Assembly: GCA_005116895.1 (NCBI GenBank)
Contig: SWDO01000004.1
Coordinates: 263,019 to 327,018 of the forward strand
Reading direction: 5' to 3'
Length of the DNA stretch: 64,000 nucleotides
Source of the DNA: Nitrospira sp.
GTDB lineage: Bacteria; Nitrospirota; Nitrospiria; Nitrospirales; Nitrospiraceae
The position numbers were made by a program, and so were the translations under genes. The notes beneath the pieces were generated by a model, which was given only the letters and a program-made list of their open reading frames with translations, was not told where the DNA came from and did no database searches. This document shows, piece by piece, positions 29,643-41,726 of this stretch (the first letter of the stretch is position 1; each line of letters starts with the position of its first letter).

Positions 29643-32039
29643 CTACCTTCTGACAGACTTCCTGTTCCCACTCCACTTCCATTGGCGGATCTCCGGCATG
29701 TCTTCGCCATGTTCGGCAATGTACTGTTTATGTTCGATGCGCTTGTCGCGGAGGGCCTGCTTGGCATAGTCGGCCCGCGAGCCGTGTAGTGGGATCCGGT
29801 CGATGACATCAGCGACCAGATGAAACCGGTCGAGATCGTTCATCACCACCATATCGAACGGGGTCGATGTGGTCCCTTCTTCTTTGTACCCGCGCACGTG
29901 CAGGTTCTTGTGATTCGTCCGTCGGTAGGTGAGCCGGTGGATCAGCCACGGGTAGCCGTGGAACGCGAAGATGACCGGCTTGTCTGTTGTGAACAAGGCA
30001 TCGAAGTCCTTGTCGGACAATCCGTTCGGATGTTCAGCGGATGGTTGCAGCTTCATGAGATCCACCACGTTGACCACTCGCACTTTCACATCCGGCAAGT
30101 AGCCTCGCAACAAGGAGACGGCCGCCAACGTTTCCAGCGTCGGTACATCGCCGCAACAGGCCATCACCACGTCCGGCTCACTATTTCGATCGTTACTCGC
30201 CCATTCCCAAATGCCGATGCCGGCTGTGCAATGCTTCACCGCGGCATCCATGTCGAGCCATTGCGGCGCCGACTGCTTGCCGGCCACGATGACGTTCACA
30301 TGGTTGCGACTGCGTAGACAGTGGTCGGTGACAGACAGCAACGTATTGGCATCGGGTGGCAAATAGACCCGGATCACCTCGGCTTTCTTGTTGACCACGT
30401 GATCGATAAACCCAGGATCTTGATGGCTGAAGCCATTGTGATCCTGCCGCCAGACATGGGAGGACAACAAATAATTCAGCGAGGCAATCGGTCGTCGCCA
30501 CGGGATGTGGCTGCAGACCTTGAGCCATTTGGCATGTTGATTGAACATCGAATCGATGATGTGGATGAAGGCCTCATAGCAGGAAAAGAATCCGTGCCGG
30601 CCCGTCAACAGATAGCCTTCCAGCCACCCCTGGCATTGGTGCTCACTGAGCATCTCCATCACCCGGCCGTCCGGCGCCAGATGGTCGTCGTACGGATAGC
30701 GATCCGCCATCCAAGCGCGGTTGGTCACCTCCAACACATCCTGCCAGCGATTTGAGTTGTTCTCGTCCGGGCTAAAAAGACGGAAGTTCCGGCTCGCCAT
30801 GTTCAGCTTCATCGTGTCCCGCAGGAATGTCCCCATGAGCCGGGTAGACTCGACATCAAGCGCACCTGGTTTCGTGACCTTGACGGCATAGTCGCGGAAA
30901 TCAGGCAGACACAGATCTCTGAGAAGCAGGCCACCGTTCGCGTGAGGGTTCGCGCTCATGCGACGCGCTCCCTTGGGCACTAGCTCGGCGAGTTCGGGCT
31001 TGAATCGTCCTGTCTTATCAAACAGTGTTTCCGGCTTGTAGCTCTTCATCCACTGTTCAAGAATTCTGATATGGGCTTGCTTGTCCATATCACCCATCGG
31101 AACTTGATGGGATCGCCAGTAGTCTTCGGTCCGCTTGCCGTCGATCTGTGGCGGACAGGTCCAGCCTTTTGGCGTGCGCAGCACAATCATCGGCCAGAAC
31201 GGTCTTCGCGCGGCGCCCTTTCGGCCCGCATCGGCCTTGATCCGCTGGATGTCTTGCACGACAGTGTCGAACGTTGCCGCCATGAGCTGATGCATCATCC
31301 GAGGATCGCGGCCTTCAACGAAATAGGGAACGTAGCCATACCCTCGAAAGAGTTGCTCTAGCTCGGCGTGGCTAATCCTGGCCAGAACCGTGGGATTGGC
31401 AATCTTGTAACCGTTCAAATGGAGAATCGGCAGGACCACGCCATCGGTGACTGGGTTGAGAAATTTGTTGGAATGCCAGCTGGTCGCCAGTGGGCCGGTT
31501 TCCGCTTCCCCATCGCCGACCACGCAGGCTGCGATAAGATCTGGATTGTCGAACACCGCCCCGTAGGCATGGGAAAGGGAGTAGCCCAATTCTCCACCCT
31601 CGTGGATAGAGCCTGGCGTTTCAGGAGACACATGGCTGGGGATGCCGCCGGGGAAAGAAAATTGCTTGAACAACCGTTTCAGACCCTGTTCATCCTGCGA
31701 GATGTTTGGATAGACCTCGCTATAGGTCCCTTCGAGGTAGGCATTGGCGACAAGCCCTGGTCCGCCGTGGCCGGGACCGGCGATATAGATCATGTTGAGA
31801 TCATGTTGTGTGATGATCCGGTTCAGATGCACATAGATAAAGTTCAAGCCCGGCGTCGTTCCCCAATGACCGAGCAGGCGAGGCTTGATGTGGGCACGGG
31901 TCAACGGCCTTTTCAGTAACGGATTGTCATAGAGATAAATCTGGCCGACAGAAAGATAATTGGCCGCCCGCCAGTAGGCATTCATCTTGTTCAACAACTC
32001 GGAACTGACAGACCTCTTGCTTGTTCGACCCATGATCAT
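29643..32039 (-). CDS. xfp: Phosphoketolase
   Basis: 798 residues, full length for Xfp/Xpk. Recognisable blocks include [81 protein letters not shown] (quoted here in overlapping parts only for order) and the thiamine diphosphate motif [21 protein letters not shown]. The C-terminal part includes [17 protein letters not shown]-like sequence. It cleaves xylulose 5-phosphate or fructose 6-phosphate to acetyl phosphate. The start has GGGAG at good spacing. It is 12 bases downstream of ackA, so acetyl phosphate can be converted to acetate and ATP by the neighbouring enzyme. Confidence 0.95.
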
Positions 32040-32051
32040 CTCATCTCCCGT

Positions 32052-33278
32052 TCAGTTTGCCTTCAATAAGTCCACGACGGACCGAGCTATCTCACTCTCT
32101 TCATCTGTGTGCATCACATGGACGCTTGCCTTGCTATCATCAGTGGAAATCACCGCTTCACCAGCCTCGTTGCGCGCTGTATCGAGCGCGACGCCGAGAA
32201 ATTCCAAGCCGGCGCAGATGCGTGCGCGAATGATTGGAGCATTCTCCCCAATCCCAGCAGTGAAGACGACTGTGTCCACGCCACCCAGTGTCGCAGCCAA
32301 CGCACCGATCCATTTTCTGGCCTGATAACAAAATAACTCGATCGCCTCGGCGGCCTGTGGATCATGCTGCTCTTGCTTGAGGAGATCTCGCATGTCGGCA
32401 CTGATCTCTGATACGCCGAGGAGGCCCGATTCGGTGTTGACCATGCGATGAAATTGCTCCACCGTCATGCCTTCTGTTCGGGCCAAGTAAGAGATCAGCC
32501 CTGGATCGAGATCTCCGGATCGACGGCTCATGACCAGGCCCGAGGTAGGGGTGAAACTCATCGTCGTATCAACCGCCTTTCCGTGCTTGACCGCGGCCAT
32601 ACTCGCACCGTTTCCAAGATGAGCGAGGATGAGGCGACCGTTGGCTTCGCCAGGCGTCCCTATTCTGGACAACTCCCTCATGAGAAAGGCATAAGACAAC
32701 CCATGAAAACCATACCGCCGCAGGCCGAGCTTGTAGAAGCGTCTTGGGATCGGCAGAAGCCGAGCAACTTGAGGCATATCATGATGGAACGCCGTATCGA
32801 AGCAGGCGATTTGGGGAAGATTCGGATAACGTCGGCTGAAGGCTTCGATCAAACTGATCTCTGACGGCAAATGCTCTGGATCGTACGGGCTGATCCTCCT
32901 CAATTCTTCCAACATGCTGGGTGTCACGGACGCAGGCCTGTTGTAGGTCATCCCGCCATGGACAATCCGATGGCCAACAGCGCGCAGGCGCTTCATTTCG
33001 ACCCGGCGTTCCAGCCAGTCGATCAAGACTCCCACGCAGGCCTGATGATCAGGTGCATTGACGGGTTGACGTTCCTGTCGTTGCGCCACGACATCATTCA
33101 CCATCAGCACAGTATCAGGCAGTCCGATCCGCTCGATCGTGCCTCGTGCAATCGGCGCGGGAGAATCTGGATCTTGAAACAGGGCAAACTTGAGACTCGA
33201 TGACCCGCCGTTGACTGTGAGGATAAGCCCCTTCGTCTGCGGCAGAATCACAGTATCCCCCGAGATCTGAGATGACAA
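32052..33278 (-). CDS. ackA: Acetate kinase
   Basis: 408 residues. ASKHA-fold motifs: LILTVNGGSSSLKFALF at the N terminus, VGHRIVHGGMTY, the active-site block ACFDTAFHHDMPQVARLLPIP, RYGFHGLSYAFLMREL, HLGNGASMAAVKHGKAVDTTMSFTPTSGLVM and VFTAGIGENAPIIR near the C terminus. It converts acetyl phosphate and ADP to acetate and ATP. It begins four bases after the glucan phosphorylase stop and precedes xfp, forming a glucan-to-acetate operon. Confidence 0.95.
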   Translation of the reverse strand: MSSQISGDTVILPQTKGLILTVNGGSSSLKFALFQDPDSPAPIARGTIERIGLPDTVLMVNDVVAQRQERQPVNAPDHQACVGVLIDWLERRVEMKRLRAVGHRIVHGGMTYNRPASVTPSMLEELRRISPYDPEHLPSEISLIEAFSRRYPNLPQIACFDTAFHHDMPQVARLLPIPRRFYKLGLRRYGFHGLSYAFLMRELSRIGTPGEANGRLILAHLGNGASMAAVKHGKAVDTTMSFTPTSGLVMSRRSGDLDPGLISYLARTEGMTVEQFHRMVNTESGLLGVSEISADMRDLLKQEQHDPQAAEAIELFCYQARKWIGALAATLGGVDTVVFTAGIGENAPIIRARICAGLEFLGVALDTARNEAGEAVISTDDSKASVHVMHTDEESEIARSVVDLLKAN

Positions 33279-33282
33279 CGTG

Positions 33283-35025
33283 TCACGCCGACCCCGGCTG
33301 CACCACTGGGGATTGCCCCAGCCGATAGGCGTCGTGAAGATACTGGGCCATCATTCTCTGAGTATTGAAGAACCCACCGTTCAATGCAATGGCCTGCCGC
33401 ATGATTTCGATAAAACGTTCACGGTCCTTGTAGAAACAGGGCAACACTTTTTGTTCTAGCTTGTCGTACAGCGCTGCAGCATGGAAGGAATCCATGCCTC
33501 CACCAGGCTCCATACAAGCTTCCACTCGATCGCCGATCGACCAACCGGTTACGCCTTCGAGATGGCCTTCGATCCACCAGCCGTCCAGCACACTCAGACT
33601 CGGTACTCCGTTCATCGCCGCCTTCATCCCACTCGTTCCCGATGCCTCCAGCGGAGGTAACGGTGTATTGAGCCACACATCCACACCGGCACAGAACATC
33701 TTGGCCACCTCCATATCATAGTTGGTCAGGTAGGCAACGTTGATACTCCCGTGCAGCGCGTCACGCATCTCATGAATATGCGCGATCAGGTCCTTGCCCT
33801 CGCGGTCATGCGGATGCGCCTTGCCGGCAAAGACGATCTGGATCGGCCCCGCCGCTCGGACAATCTGCTTGAGCCGCGCGAGATCCTGAAAGATCATGCC
33901 GGCCCGTTTGTAGGCCGCAAACCGACGGGCAAATCCAATCGTCAATACTTCGCGATCAAAACCCGCATTCGCTTCCCGATTCACATGTTCGACCAACGTA
34001 CGCTTGGCTTCCACATGGGCCGCCCAGATGTCCGAGGTGGGAATACTCACGGCATAGCGCAGCGAGAGTTGATCGCGCCGCCAGTCCGGCAGATGGGTAT
34101 CGAAGAGTTTCTGGAATGATGGAGCGGTCCACGTCATCGCGTGCACTCCGTTGGTAATGGAATGGATCGGGTAGCCGGGGAACATGCTGTGCGAAACTTC
34201 CCTATGCTTCATCGCCACTCCATTGACATAGCGAGACCCCCGCAACGCCAATTGCGTCAGATTGAGCGTCTCCCCAACGCCACAGGACTTCAAGAGCTGC
34301 CACCAATGATCGCCGAGCACCTGGCGCGCGAGTGTCTCGGGAAACTTATCGTGGCCGGCTGGCACCGGGGTATGGGTCGTGAAGACGCACTGTTCGCGAA
34401 TGGTTTCGATCAGCTCGTTTGAAATCGAAGGCGGCTGGTTCTGCGCGGCCAGCTTCTCCTCGCCAAGCGCAAGGACGAGCAACGCGGCGTGCCCTTCATT
34501 CATGTGAAATCGGCGGATGTCTTGGTATCCCAGAGCCCGCAAGAGTCGAAGCCCTCCAACCCCCAGCACCATTTCCTGACAGAAGCGATAGTGGTCGTCG
34601 CCTCCGTAAAGCACATCTGTCAGTGTTCGGTCCCACGGCTGGTTCTCGCTCACATCGGTGTCGAGCAGATACACCGGAACAACATGGCCGGACTCGCCGG
34701 TGACGCAGTATCTCCAGGCCCTGACATGAACCGTGCGACCTTCGATATCGACTGTGGCTTGCTCGTCGATCAGCTCCGCAAAATCATTGATCGGCCAGGC
34801 GACGGCTTCCTCACGTTGATGACCTTGCGCATCCAGCCGCTGGAAAAAGTATCCGCGCCGGTGGATCAACGACACCGCCACCATCGGCACCTCGAGATCC
34901 GCAGCGGAGCGAATCGTGTCGCCGGCGAGCACGCCGAGCCCTCCCGCATAGGTCGGCATGCCGGATTCCAAGCCGATCTCCATCGAGAAATAGGCAACCA
35001 GCACGCTCTCGGGCCGGTCGGTCAT
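33283..35025 (-). CDS. glgP: Alpha-glucan phosphorylase (short form)
   Basis: 580 residues, shorter than E. coli GlgP (about 815) and matching the compact GT35 group. Motifs include AYFSMEIGLESGMPTYAGGLGVLAGD, FHMNEGHAALL, FTTHTPVPAGHDKF, SITNGVHAMTW and the pyridoxal-phosphate lysine region EASGTSGMKAAMNGVPSLSVLDGWW. It releases glucose 1-phosphate from glycogen or maltodextrin. Its ATG overlaps the stop of the TreT-like remnant (ATGA), so translation may depend on the broken upstream frame. Confidence 0.93.
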   Translation of the reverse strand: MTDRPESVLVAYFSMEIGLESGMPTYAGGLGVLAGDTIRSAADLEVPMVAVSLIHRRGYFFQRLDAQGHQREEAVAWPINDFAELIDEQATVDIEGRTVHVRAWRYCVTGESGHVVPVYLLDTDVSENQPWDRTLTDVLYGGDDHYRFCQEMVLGVGGLRLLRALGYQDIRRFHMNEGHAALLVLALGEEKLAAQNQPPSISNELIETIREQCVFTTHTPVPAGHDKFPETLARQVLGDHWWQLLKSCGVGETLNLTQLALRGSRYVNGVAMKHREVSHSMFPGYPIHSITNGVHAMTWTAPSFQKLFDTHLPDWRRDQLSLRYAVSIPTSDIWAAHVEAKRTLVEHVNREANAGFDREVLTIGFARRFAAYKRAGMIFQDLARLKQIVRAAGPIQIVFAGKAHPHDREGKDLIAHIHEMRDALHGSINVAYLTNYDMEVAKMFCAGVDVWLNTPLPPLEASGTSGMKAAMNGVPSLSVLDGWWIEGHLEGVTGWSIGDRVEACMEPGGGMDSFHAAALYDKLEQKVLPCFYKDRERFIEIMRQAIALNGGFFNTQRMMAQYLHDAYRLGQSPVVQPGSA

Positions 35026-35588
35026 GATGTCTGCACAATGTGCTTGATCAGTCGCAGCTCGTCACGCACCAGCCGCGGTAGCAGAAAGTGCTTCCGCACA
35101 TGCTCGCGCCCAGCCCGACCAAATTCTCCCCGGTCGCCCGGTCGCTTGAGCAGGTCGAGGACCCGCTCCGCACAGCCTTCCACGCTGTCCACTAGGTTTT
35201 TGTGATAGGGCTCAGGAAACTGCATCGGAATGCCTCCGGCGTTTCCCGCCACTACCGGCTTTTCTTTCCAGAGGGCTTCGGACACGACCAGCCCAAACCC
35301 CTCCCGCAACGACTTTTGGATGACCACATCACAGCCACGCTGAAAGGCGTTGACCTCCATGCTTCCAACTCCTGAGAGGTTGGTAAAGACAAAGAGATCT
35401 GGATCATTCGCGGCCTGCTCTTCGACGCGATACAGTACGGAGAGAACGCCTCCTACGATTGCTCCCTCCACAATCATGATCGTCTTGAAAAAGATCAGAT
35501 CGGTCTGCATAAGACCCATCAACAGAATCGCCGTGACCTAAGAAATGACCCACAAGATCAGCCCATATCCGATCTTCTTCAGCATCAT
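35022..35588 (-). pseudogene. Chimeric remnant: membrane-protein N terminus joined to a TreT-like glycosyltransferase C terminus
   Basis: From ATG codons at 35585/35588, with GGAGGAAGG upstream, the minus strand reads MLKKIGYGLILWVIS, a TAG stop at 35538-35540, then in the same frame VTAILLMGLMQTDLIFF and KTIMIVEGAIVGGVLSVLY, like a small DUF5367-type membrane protein. After LY the frame changes identity to a GT4 trehalose synthase (TreT) tail: VEEQAANDPDLFVFTNLSG, NAFQRGCDVVIQKSLREGFG and VVSEALWKEKPVVAGNAGG. The TreT N-terminal 250 or so residues are gone. An internal deletion joining two genes explains this. The 166-residue frame after the stop could be translated but would lack the GT acceptor domain. 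Confidence 0.75.
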
Positions 35589-35686
35589 CCTTCCTCCGCG
35601 CCTAAAAATAAGACTCCAGGGATATCTCACTGTTTCTACTGCTGGCACTGTGAAGCATTTGCACGTTGATCCATTTGTCAGCAGCA

Positions 35687-36538
35687 TCATGGCTGCTGAG
35701 ACCGTTCCGCACTCAGCATAAGAAGTTCGATTTCTTCCGTAATCTCTTCTTGTCGGAGAACATTACGTTTTAATTCTAATCCAGATATTTCTTTTTCAAG
35801 CCGCTGTATCGCGCCTTCCAGATGGGATACCCGAGCATGATTCTCCGCCAAAAGGGCGCTATAAAAGATCTTATGCAAGAAGGAATAGAAGTAGAGATCA
35901 ATCAACTCAGCTAGAAATACAGGCGGGGGCAGATTCAGGAACGGCGGATCCGCGAAATGAGCTGTCTTGCCAAGAGGCAGCTCGAATGGTCGGAGGGTTT
36001 GACTAAACGCACCGTCTGTATCTAGAGCATGTGAAACGACCGTGATTGTCAAAGGTCGGGCTGATGGTTCTTCTCTCTGCAACTCATGGATGTGATCCAT
36101 CACCTGGATCAACACCGACTGGACTTCTTCCGCAACTGACGCTCCCTCTACGGATATCGTCGCATATCGATCGTCCGCAATCCGCGCTGTCAGCTTTTGC
36201 CCCACCGACAAGAGAACCGGACCTTGATCTCCCACGAGCTGCAGCCGCTCTCGAACATGGGCACCCAACTGTTCATTGAAATCACCGCAAAACCCTCGTT
36301 CCGAGCCGATCACGACATACAGTGGCCTGCCGCCCTCCGTGTGGGACAGCGCTTCAGGGTAAAACATGAGGAAATCGGCACCTGCCTCCTGCATGCTTGT
36401 CACCACGCGGTCCTGCGCAGCCAACAGCCTGGCCAGCTTCTGTATCTCCATCAGAGCGAGGTTTTTCATGGCGCTCATGATGGCGCTGATCTCACCGAGT
36501 GAGCGGGTATGATCCTCGATATCGCGTCGTTTGCTCAT
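35687..36538 (-). CDS. atpG: N-ATPase gamma subunit
   Basis: 283 residues from [11 protein letters not shown], overlapping the atpA stop (ATGA). The N-terminal helix ([20 protein letters not shown]) and C-terminal helix ([25 protein letters not shown]) form the central stalk, and [15 protein letters not shown] marks the gamma family. The sequence is divergent from housekeeping gamma subunits, as usual in N-ATPases, where atpG is last in the operon. Confidence 0.85.
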
Positions 36539-38022
36539 ATCGCCATGTGCCGGTCGAGCCAATGACTCACAGCTTCTATCCATTCTTCTTCACGACTTTC
36601 CAGCGTGAGATCGCTCTCCTTCACACGCATCGCGAGAGAGTCAAGCAAGGCAGGAATCGATGCCAAAGGAACCTTGTTGAAGAGACCATGCTGAAATCCC
36701 GTCAACCAGGCCAGATGAAACTCAATCGGCAGGGGAGCCAGCCTATCCTGCTTCAGCAATTCCCGCAGGACACGGCCAGATGCAATCTTCGTTTCCATCG
36801 ACGCCTCAATACGCGATCCGAATCTGGTGAAGACCTCCAACTCGAGGAATTGGAGATACTCCAACTTCATGCGTCCTGCTTTTTCTTTGATTCGGTGGTG
36901 CTGTCCCTTCCCCCCGACACGTGACACGGATCTCGTCACATCGATGGCGGGAAGAATGCCTGACGCAAAGAGGCGTTTATCGAGATAGATCTGTCCATCG
37001 GTAATCGAGATCAGATTCGTGGGAATATAGGCTGCAATTTCTCCCTCCTTTGTCTCGACGATCGGCAAGGCCGTCATGCTGCCGCCCCCATGCGCCGGGG
37101 CAAGACAGGTCGATCGCTCAAGCAGACGTGAGTGGAGAAAGAAAATATCGCCGGGATAAGCCTCGCGTCCTGGTGGACGCCGGAGGAGCAGCGAGAGCTC
37201 CCGATAGGCTTCCGCGTGCATCGTCAGATCGTCGTACACCACCAGCGTGTCGTGCCCCTCCCACATCCAGGTTTCCGCCACAGCACATCCCGCAAACGGA
37301 GCCATAAATTTGAGGCCAGGCAGCGACGTCGCCTCTGCGACAACAAGCACGGTATACATCAATGAACCGGACTGCCGAAGGGTTTCGATCGTATCAACAA
37401 CGCTTGACCGTTTCTGGCCGACCAGGACATAGACACAGCGCACCCCTTGGCCCCGTTGATTGATAACCGCATCGATGGCTAAGGAGCTTTTTCCGAGCCC
37501 ATTGTCGCCGATGATCAATTGGCGCTGGCCCTTGCCAATGGGAATCAACGTATCCACGATCTTGCTTCCCGTATACAGCGGTTTATGGACGAAGTCGCGC
37601 GCTGTAATCGGCGGCGAAAGAATGTCCAGCGGACGAGTGGCTGAACATTCCGGATGGTCCAATCCATCGAGTGGATTTCCCAGGGGGTCGATGACTCGAC
37701 CAATCAGAGCCTCCCCCGTCGGGATCTCCATACGCCGGCCCGACAGATGCGCGATCGTACCGGCAGTCAGTCGGTCGGTCTGTTCGAGTAGAATGGCGCC
37801 GACGATGTGCGCCTCCAGCTGAAACACCATGGCGCGGCTGCCATCGTCGAGGTCAAGGATTTCATCCATCGCTGCCGATGGCAAACCCTCGATCCAAGCG
37901 ATGCCATCCCCGACCGACACGACAATCCCTTGTTCGGAGACCCGCAGGCTGAACCGATAGTCACGGAGCCACGCGGCCTGACTTGCCAGCACCTGATTCG
38001 ATGCGATTGCTTGACTAAGCAT
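36535..38022 (-). CDS. atpA: N-ATPase alpha subunit
   Basis: 495 residues from MLSQAIASN; a TTG six codons earlier is an alternative. The N-terminal barrel ([18 protein letters not shown]), the P loop [68 protein letters not shown] (shown as separate motifs in the protein) and the arginine-finger region [14 protein letters not shown] are all present. The Walker A differs from the common GDRQTGKT but keeps GxxxxGKS. It overlaps atpF by eight bases and atpG by four. This subunit looks complete, unlike atpD. Confidence 0.92.
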
Positions 38023-38761
38023 GACGCGACGATTCGGCAAAAAAGCTCATTTCGTCTTGCACATTGGCGCGAAGGACCCAGGATCCAAAACTGATCCGTA
38101 AGCCGGCGATAAGATTCCTGTCTTCGAGAAACTCGCAGGGCACCTCGCGTCCCATCAGCGTTCGGCAGGCGTCTCCGAAGACCTTCCGCTGAGTCGTGTC
38201 GAGTGGATACCCGCTCGTAATTCTCATCACAAGCCCTGTCGTGGCCGACACCGACCGGATGGCCCGAATCTTGTCCTCTGGCAGACGGGGAAGATCCTCC
38301 ATCACCAGATCGATAATCCGTCGTTCCAATTCCGCCCCCCCCAGGCGTGACAGGAGTCGACTCGCGAATGTTGCCCCTTGTGCGATGGCGGAAGCCTCGG
38401 TCTGTTGCGTGAAATCTTTCAACCGCCGTTGTTCGACCGCAGCGGCTTTTTGTCGCTCCTGATCGAGTTCTGTACGAAGCCCGTCCAGCTGCCGATTCCG
38501 TTCGGCGCTGATTTCGTCACGCAGCTTTGCGCGAGCCTTGTCTTTTTCCTGCTCCCACTCTGCGAGACGATTCTCGTATTGGCCCCGTAACGTCTCCGCA
38601 TCGCTCCGCATCTGTTCTGCATCCGCCTGCGTTTTTTGAATGGCAGTCTTGCGCTGGGCGATGACTTTCATCACGGGTTTATACAGAAATCGGTTAAGGA
38701 GCCAGATCAGGACCAGAAAGTTGATCAGTTCGAGTATGAACGTCGTCCAATCCAGTTCCAC
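38015..38761 (-). CDS. atpF: N-ATPase b subunit with delta-like C terminus
   Basis: 248 residues from a GTG start preceded by GGAGGG. One N-terminal membrane helix ([20 protein letters not shown]) is followed by a long charged coiled-coil (residues 30-130). The last 100 residues ([41 protein letters not shown]) resemble the C-terminal domain of the F1 delta subunit. N-ATPase operons lack atpH, and this extension probably replaces it as the stator contact. Confidence 0.88.
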
Positions 38762-38819
38762 AGGTCACCCTCCACAGTTCCCCTCATGGACAGCGATAGA
38801 GGGCATGCGCCCCCATCGA

Positions 38820-39089
38820 TCATGGCTTCAGCATGTATTCGAGCAACGGATTTCGGAAGAGAATGATCAAGACGATCACCAGACAGTAAATCGCCAACGA
38901 CTCAATCATGGCGAGACCGATGAATAGCGCTCGGGTGATTGAGCGTTCTGCCTCCGGCTGCCTCGCCAACGCTTCCAATGCTTGGCTGATGGCACGCCCC
39001 ATTGCCATCGCCGGAATCATGGTTCCGATCGCAATAGCCAACGCAGCGACGACTGTCGAGGCAAGGGCAAACCAGCTGATGTCACGCAT
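38820..39089 (-). CDS. atpE: N-ATPase c subunit with altered ion-site residues
   Basis: 89 residues from the ATG at 39089, favoured over a GTG six bases earlier because AGGAG is well spaced from it. Two membrane helices flank the polar loop ALARQPEAERS. Helix 2 carries MIESLAIY, with the essential carboxylate at Glu63 and Ser64, as in sodium-type rings. In helix 1 the position normally held by Gln or Glu in Na+-binding rings is Met30 (IPAMAMGRA), and the Thr after ES is Leu65. Tyr68 is kept. The ion specificity is therefore uncertain. Confidence 0.88.
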   Translation of the reverse strand: MRDISWFALASTVVAALAIAIGTMIPAMAMGRAISQALEALARQPEAERSITRALFIGLAMIESLAIYCLVIVLIILFRNPLLEYMLKP

Positions 39090-39091
39090 GA

Positions 39092-39781
39092 TCACTCCTG
39101 TGCTTGAGGTTTTCTAGATTCTTGTGAGTGAATTGCACCGGCGATATAGATCAAGGCGAGCATACCGAAGATATAGGCCTGGATCAGCGCTTCGATGATG
39201 TGCAAGATCAACAATGGAATCGGCACCAAAAAGCCTGCCACGAGCAGCACCAACAGTGCCGCCATTTCGAGACTCATGATGTTGCCGAACAGCCGGATGG
39301 CAAGGGCGAGGGTACGGGTGAGTTCACTCATGAGGTGGAACGGGAGCATGATCGGCATGGGAGCCAAATAGTGACGCAGATACGCTCGGATCCCCTCTGA
39401 GCGAATGCCGAACCAGTGCACCGAAAGAAACACAATGACGGCCAGCGCTGCCGTCGTCGACAGGTCACCGGTCGGAGCGTGGACACCGGGGATCAGACCG
39501 GACAGATTCGCCACCATGATGAACAGCCAGAGCGTGGCAATGAAAGGGAGCAGCCGCGCCGTCTGTGCGGGCAGCACGGCTCGAATCGCCTCATCCGCCG
39601 CACCGAGCAACCCTTCCAATACAACTTGGACCGGCCCAGGATCGTGGCTCAGCCGCCTCGTTCCGATCCAAGACCCCACGACGAGAGCGAACATGATGCC
39701 CCATGTAGTGAGAACCGGTTCCGCTAACACAACCGGTCCAAGCTGCACCCCCGCCCCTGTCAACAGATCGGACGATCCCAT
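39092..39781 (-). CDS. atpB: N-ATPase a subunit
   Basis: 229 residues with about six membrane helices. The essential arginine lies in the conserved helix SELTRTLALAIRLFGNIMSLEMAALL, and the last helix has ILHIIEALIQAYIFGMLALIYIAGAI. It forms the ion half-channels with the c ring. It starts only three bases after the atpQ stop, so no space is left for the atpR gene usually found at this point. Confidence 0.9.
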   Translation of the reverse strand: MGSSDLLTGAGVQLGPVVLAEPVLTTWGIMFALVVGSWIGTRRLSHDPGPVQVVLEGLLGAADEAIRAVLPAQTARLLPFIATLWLFIMVANLSGLIPGVHAPTGDLSTTAALAVIVFLSVHWFGIRSEGIRAYLRHYLAPMPIMLPFHLMSELTRTLALAIRLFGNIMSLEMAALLVLLVAGFLVPIPLLILHIIEALIQAYIFGMLALIYIAGAIHSQESRKPQAQE

Positions 39782-39784
39782 CCG

Positions 39785-40050
39785 TTATTCCCTCACGTTC
39801 AAATAGACGCTCATGGCGCCGATACCCACACCGAGAACAATCAGGCTCAACGTCCAGCGCATCGAATACCCTGGAACCAAACCATCCAGCCATTGACCGA
39901 CATAGGCACCGACGATCACGGGCACGACAAACAGCAACCCCAAGGTCCCCAGATACACGGTCTGTCTCAGCAGAGTAGGTCTGTCTTCTTCCGCTTGCTT
40001 CATGCGGCGGATCTGCTTGGTCACCTCCTCCTTCAATTGATTCTCGCTTT

Positions 40051-40054
<4 letters not shown>
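39785..40054 (-). CDS. atpQ: AtpQ (AtpI-like) membrane protein of the N-ATPase operon
   Basis: 89 residues: a charged N terminus (LKEEVTKQIRRMKQAEEDRP) and two membrane helices (LGLLFVVPVIVGAYVGQWLDG and WTLSLIVLGVGIGAMSVYL). This is the AtpI/AtpQ type found after atpC in N-ATPase operons, thought to aid c-ring assembly or metal supply. Start and stop overlap neighbours by four bases upstream (ATGA with atpC). Confidence 0.85.

Positions 40055-41726
<1,672 letters not shown>

Follow-up and report, generated by a model that had tools for sequence, protein, structure and literature searches.

The minus strand of the Nitrospira sp. contig stretch analyzed here (64,000 nucleotides, hereafter the window) carries a single reading frame, from 35588 to 35022, in which the beginning of a small membrane-protein gene runs into the end of treT. 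We consider this best read as a fusion pseudogene of a common kind, bordering a fragment of an N-ATPase operon that has been rearranged. Most probably the wreck is a non-functional scar of that rearrangement that has acquired no new function. A preliminary description of the sequence had caught one end of this event: what it reported as an isolated wreck is the 3' joint of an N-ATPase fragment that is itself broken at its 5' end.

The fused frame and its two parents

Translation from 35588 to 35022 gives MMLKKIGYGLILWVIS*VTAILLMGLMQTDLIFFKTIMIVEGAIVGGVLSVLYRVEEQAANDPDLF...VQTS*, and a plus-strand gene over the same interval (35022–35588) was ruled out by stops throughout. The frame, which lies on the minus strand like all window features described below, consists of 16 codons of the membrane protein, a TAG, about 35 further membrane-protein codons and TreT sequence that runs from about 35432 to a TGA at 35024–35022. 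Translation and homology thus agree with the preliminary description of a chimeric ORF, with a membrane-protein start joined in frame to a TreT tail and a TAG inside. The in-frame TAG, which had been placed after 15 codons, is codon 17 (35538–35540) and follows 16 codons including the ATG; the aligned codon of the G066 gene encodes Tyr. The good ribosome site and ATG that had been described are likewise present. The Shine–Dalgarno stretch GGAGGAAGG (35589–35598) abuts the ATG of the membrane gene and scores −9.5, as a simple duplex energy, which is the strongest value among ten sites scored in the window. After the TAG the frame stays open through to the ATGA overlap at glgP. Possible re-initiation codons in 35508–35522 are TTG 35522, ATG 35519 and ATG 35510, respectively 15, 18 and 27 bases past the TAG; both ATGs arose by changes relative to the G066 gene, where these codons are not ATG. 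No RNA elements were found in the window by an Rfam search, and neither a sigma-70-like promoter nor a terminator was found in the stretch from the N-ATPase gamma gene to glgP, with shuffled sequences averaging about one.

The upstream part (35433–35588) is a 5' remnant, by homology to G066, of about 52 of some 125 codons, with the TAG inside. Over 53 residues its protein sequence is 81% identical to that of an uninterrupted gene in G066 (G066:C99:37996–38370), which sits right behind N-ATPase gamma and runs for 125 codons without a stop, the ORF reaching the contig end to within two bases so that its own stop codon is out of view. The two copies are alike in these first 53 residues, in their place after gamma and in having a similar ribosome site; they differ in that the window copy is cut short and is stopped at codon 17. 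The nonsynonymous changes near the TAG, relative to the G066 gene, are P to S, Y to stop, P to L, L to M, S to G and R to M. The gene is rare: of 175 genomes of the family, only 4 have it. In G018 and G097, the latter from another genus, its homologues are located some 5 kb upstream of glgP or treT–glgP. A DUF5367-like nature had been proposed for this membrane protein, for which we find no support: neither the fragment nor its intact homologue matched any Pfam family even at an E-value of 10, and a direct search with DUF5367 (PF17329) gave no hit in any of the four genomes with the gene, with control genomes giving a signal.

The downstream part (35022–35432) is a treT 3' remnant that corresponds to residues 287–423 of the TreT of RSF1 (G017) and is open to its own TGA. 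It matches the NCBIfam TreT profile NF041139 over positions 286–410/412 (E = 2.8 × 10−29), at 102 bits against a curated threshold of 775, as is appropriate for a fragment rather than a full-length member; the earlier assignment of the tail to the C-terminal third of TreT therefore stands. The first 286 residues are gone, so no complete GT4 enzyme is possible. Its homology to the C-terminus of same-genus TreT is close, with 97.8% identity to RSF1 TreT over 138 residues, 98–99% identity at the DNA level and only four synonymous and two nonsynonymous codon differences in 137. Just past the joint, positions 35432, 35430, 35424 and 35418 differ from RSF1, with three of the four showing states found in other Nitrospira treT alleles, and the next 275 bases are identical. 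Intact versions of treT are widespread in the genus. In RSF1 it is a 429-codon open frame that overlaps glgP; the treT–glgP pair with its ATGA overlap is intact in G017, G009, G027, G010 and many other genomes, and the order treT–glgP(ATGA)–ack–xfp recurs in G009, G027, G010, G036 and others. In the genome of the window, a 3.3 Mb Nitrospira draft in 35 contigs, no second copy of treT was found, nor were the missing 5' two thirds of the gene, in a search that had no positive control in a genome 89.67% complete.

Thus, as the preliminary description had suggested should be checked, each half is a separate, uninterrupted gene in close relatives, the membrane gene in G066 and treT in G017 and many others, and the fusion is absent there, as is expected of a fusion pseudogene. 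Indeed, it was seen in only one of 79 genomes of the genus, that of the window itself. A family carrying the full fusion with no stop, which by the same description would have pointed to a sequencing error, was absent from all other genomes searched; the TAG and the joint are known here from the assembled sequence alone. Neither parent protein can be produced in full, since the membrane protein is without its C-terminal half and is stopped by the TAG at its codon 17, while the N-terminal domain of TreT is gone, and we infer that both functions have been lost. The arrangement resembles pseudogenes that illegitimate recombination has created by joining genes in frame, which likewise combine two truncated genes and a premature stop with intact parents in relatives; it differs from them in that the scar precedes a gene whose start overlaps the scar's own stop. 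The joint retained the frame, but that is expected in one of three cases by chance alone and is no evidence of function.

The N-ATPase fragment, its two joints and mixed ancestry

N-ATPase operons have the gene order beta, epsilon, Q, R, a, c, b, alpha, gamma. Directly upstream of the fused frame, profiles for all of these but R identified each of them in an operon piece at 35687–41693 (in ascending order gamma, alpha, b, c, a, Q, epsilon and beta). The set is not complete with an intact beta: atpD (40458–41693) lacks the approximately 60 N-terminal residues of the G066 copy, and a profile search for its N-terminal barrel domain gave no match. Judging from this truncation, the operon is probably non-functional, though its other genes are uninterrupted. 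It is of the same F-type kind as the N-ATPase operon that ‘Ca. Nitrospira alkalitolerans’ possesses besides a separate main ATP synthase (PMC7784846), from which the window copy differs in that its beta gene is missing the 5' end.

Comparison with relatives places a break in homology at each end of this piece. From about 41693 to 35448 (6.2 kb) the window matches G066 at 94.6% DNA identity, whereas upstream of 41693 it matches G013 at 93–95%. At the upstream joint (41690–41697) homology switches at 41693: on one side lies the 3' flank of a response-regulator gene, matching G013, and on the other the interior of atpD, matching G066, so this end is broken within a gene like the other. At the downstream one it jumps at 35435–35430 from the membrane gene to treT, where a three-way comparison with G066 and RSF1 locates the joint at CTG TAT (35430–35435), with a microhomology of a few bases. 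Between that same response regulator and atpD, G066 has a set of exporter genes (hlyD, ABC and two ABC2 genes, named from sequence reading). Upstream of treT, RSF1 has tolC, the same exporter block, a further small gene and one resembling a nitroreductase gene; the RSF1 exporter block was searched for in the window's genome and not found. An N-ATPase fragment of 6.25 kb (approximately 41693–35433), shared with a G066-like Nitrospira and having illegitimate joints at both of its ends, stands in the window where RSF1 has exporter genes and the first two thirds of treT ahead of glgP. The downstream joint lies inside the post-gamma membrane gene on one side and inside treT, at codon 286–287, on the other, the frame being kept by chance. 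The map would be explained either by one replacement of this stretch or by an import and two later deletions. Exactly where the window differs from G013, between a tolC-like gene and glgP codon 495, the G013 scaffold has a gap of 100 Ns (L149:14193–14292), which masks just the sequence that would reveal a simple deletion in a G013-like order.

The divergence on the two sides of the joint is unequal. The dS to G066 is 0.10–0.29 in the N-ATPase genes versus 0.44–0.65 in the four genes upstream of them. On the other side, the dS of glgP to RSF1 is 0.007 on one contig and 0 over 306 codons on another, and those of ack and xfp are 0.15 and 0.30. By these estimates, the two sides of the joint have different recent ancestries. 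Further, the three joint-side states shared with other treT alleles hint that an exchange with RSF1-like sequence came after the fusion. The near-undecayed tail would fit a recent event or a recent exchange; it would also fit a retained product.

Beyond glgP, identity alternates between relatives across 29643–33278: ack is 99.3% identical to G013 and 94.3% to G017, and xfp is 88.9% identical to G013 and 92.8% to G017. This alternation suggests, at the level of sequence identity, repeated exchange between species. Homologous recombination was reported to be low overall in waterworks Nitrospira populations (PMC8751384); this part of the window would then be exceptional, or assembly would account for some of the pattern.

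Translation of glgP and rival readings of the wreck

The fused frame is followed by glgP (33283–35025), which codes for an intact α-glucan phosphorylase of 580 residues (TIGR02094, E = 1.1 × 10−163), and then by genes for acetate kinase (ack, 32052–33278; PF00871) and phosphoketolase (xfp, 29643–32039; PF09364/PF03894/PF09363). That glgP is translationally coupled to the end of the fused ORF had been claimed at the outset, and the two do overlap: the TGA of the tail and the ATG of glgP form an ATGA at 35025. This arrangement is ancestral, and such overlaps imposed strict coupling in 13 of 14 pairs tested (PMC6728339). The Shine–Dalgarno score of glgP in the window, −1.4, is the weakest among 29 loci scored (−5.1 in RSF1), because of a GTG-to-ATT change at 35039–35037. 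Given the ancestral overlap and the weak site here, an effect of the wreck on glgP expression is plausible, and glgP translation may be mildly dependent on ribosomes crossing the scar. Ribosomes loading at the site before 35588 would hit the TAG after 16 codons; those initiating past it would end at the ATGA overlap and feed glgP.

One could accordingly imagine that the wreck has been retained as a leader, with a 16-codon peptide ending at the TAG, a restart 15–27 bases on and a frame of 160-odd codons feeding glgP. The strong upstream Shine–Dalgarno, the poor site of glgP itself, the frame open from past the TAG to glgP and the strict coupling reported for ATGA overlaps would all be in keeping with this, as would the treT stub of G005, whose frame likewise stays open up to glgP although the gene has an internal deletion and what seem to be two frameshifts that compensate each other. 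Nevertheless, we regard it as improbable: an in-frame joint has a one-in-three chance of arising anyway, the Shine–Dalgarno scores are simple duplex energies and are weak for other window genes too (gamma, −3.3), the G026 stub has a TAA and an altered frame with glgP still kept, and the G005 tail is under relaxed constraint. The broader version of this idea is quite doubtful: dead treT stubs would be kept before glgP as translation leaders, glgP relying on ribosomes delivered through the ATGA overlap, with the window leader rebuilt by fusion to the ribosome site of another gene, a 16-codon peptide ended by the TAG and a re-initiation entry. That a re-initiated product of 162–166 residues works as a membrane-anchored half-glycosyltransferase is extremely unlikely; the frame is open and the TreT part has few changes, but the GT4 N-terminal domain is absent and no counterpart was seen in the genomes searched.

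A different kind of explanation would make the joint a chimera of strains created in assembly or binning, with the genes of the organism intact. The draft state of the genome leaves room for this, as does glgP, whose DNA is 100% identical to that of G017 over 306 codons, yet ack differs by 6%; an identical glgP in different species could mislead an assembler. The region is also hard to assemble, with the G017, G013 and G066 assemblies all breaking or switching partner in or near glgP or treT: G017:C7 ends in glgP and G017:C6 joins cld to glgP codon 275, the gap in G013 immediately precedes codon 495 of glgP, and in G066 there are contig ends within treT, behind the membrane gene and within glgP. 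Against such an artifact, the few bases shared by the membrane gene and treT are too short for an assembler to cross, the four treT-side positions differ from RSF1 with three in states known from other alleles, the N-ATPase piece shows the same kind of break at its upstream end, and the treT 5' part was not recovered from the genome, within the limits of that search. On balance we consider an artifact unlikely and favor a recombination scar. As for the G017 assembly, glgP codons 275–580 of the window (33283–34203; L148:13016–13948) are DNA-identical to G017:C6, where they lie directly behind a chlorite-dismutase-like gene, and codons 1–207 are found at the end of another G017 contig; the RSF1 glgP accordingly looks split or misassembled.

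Recurrent decay of treT

The window is not alone in having a broken treT next to glgP, as the same is seen in G005 and G026. The G005 stub (L023/L154; G005:C1, approximately 814829–815275) combines its internal deletion and apparently paired frameshifts with an open 181-codon frame into glgP, and its tail has a dN/dS of 0.48 versus the nearest intact relative, where about 0.1 is usual. In G026 (L015/L053; G026:C158), residues from about 190 to 305 have been deleted between edges that share VVFT/FVFT coding sequence, and glgP is intact behind the remnant. A third broken treT, in G062, has no glgP within the stretch examined. The pattern points to treT simply decaying, while the portion next to glgP stays behind. 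As judged from these gene remains, the decay of treT is recurrent, with glgP–ack–xfp being kept.

If the leader reading were true, the window would offer a natural case of a pseudogene retained for translational coupling. Under the favored reading of a recombination scar, the practical consequence is that automatic annotation would report a glycosyltransferase at 35022–35522 and treat the N-ATPase as a functioning ion pump, both probably wrongly. More generally, the N-ATPase and treT–glgP–ack–xfp region of Nitrospira is one that has been rearranged and exchanged between species.
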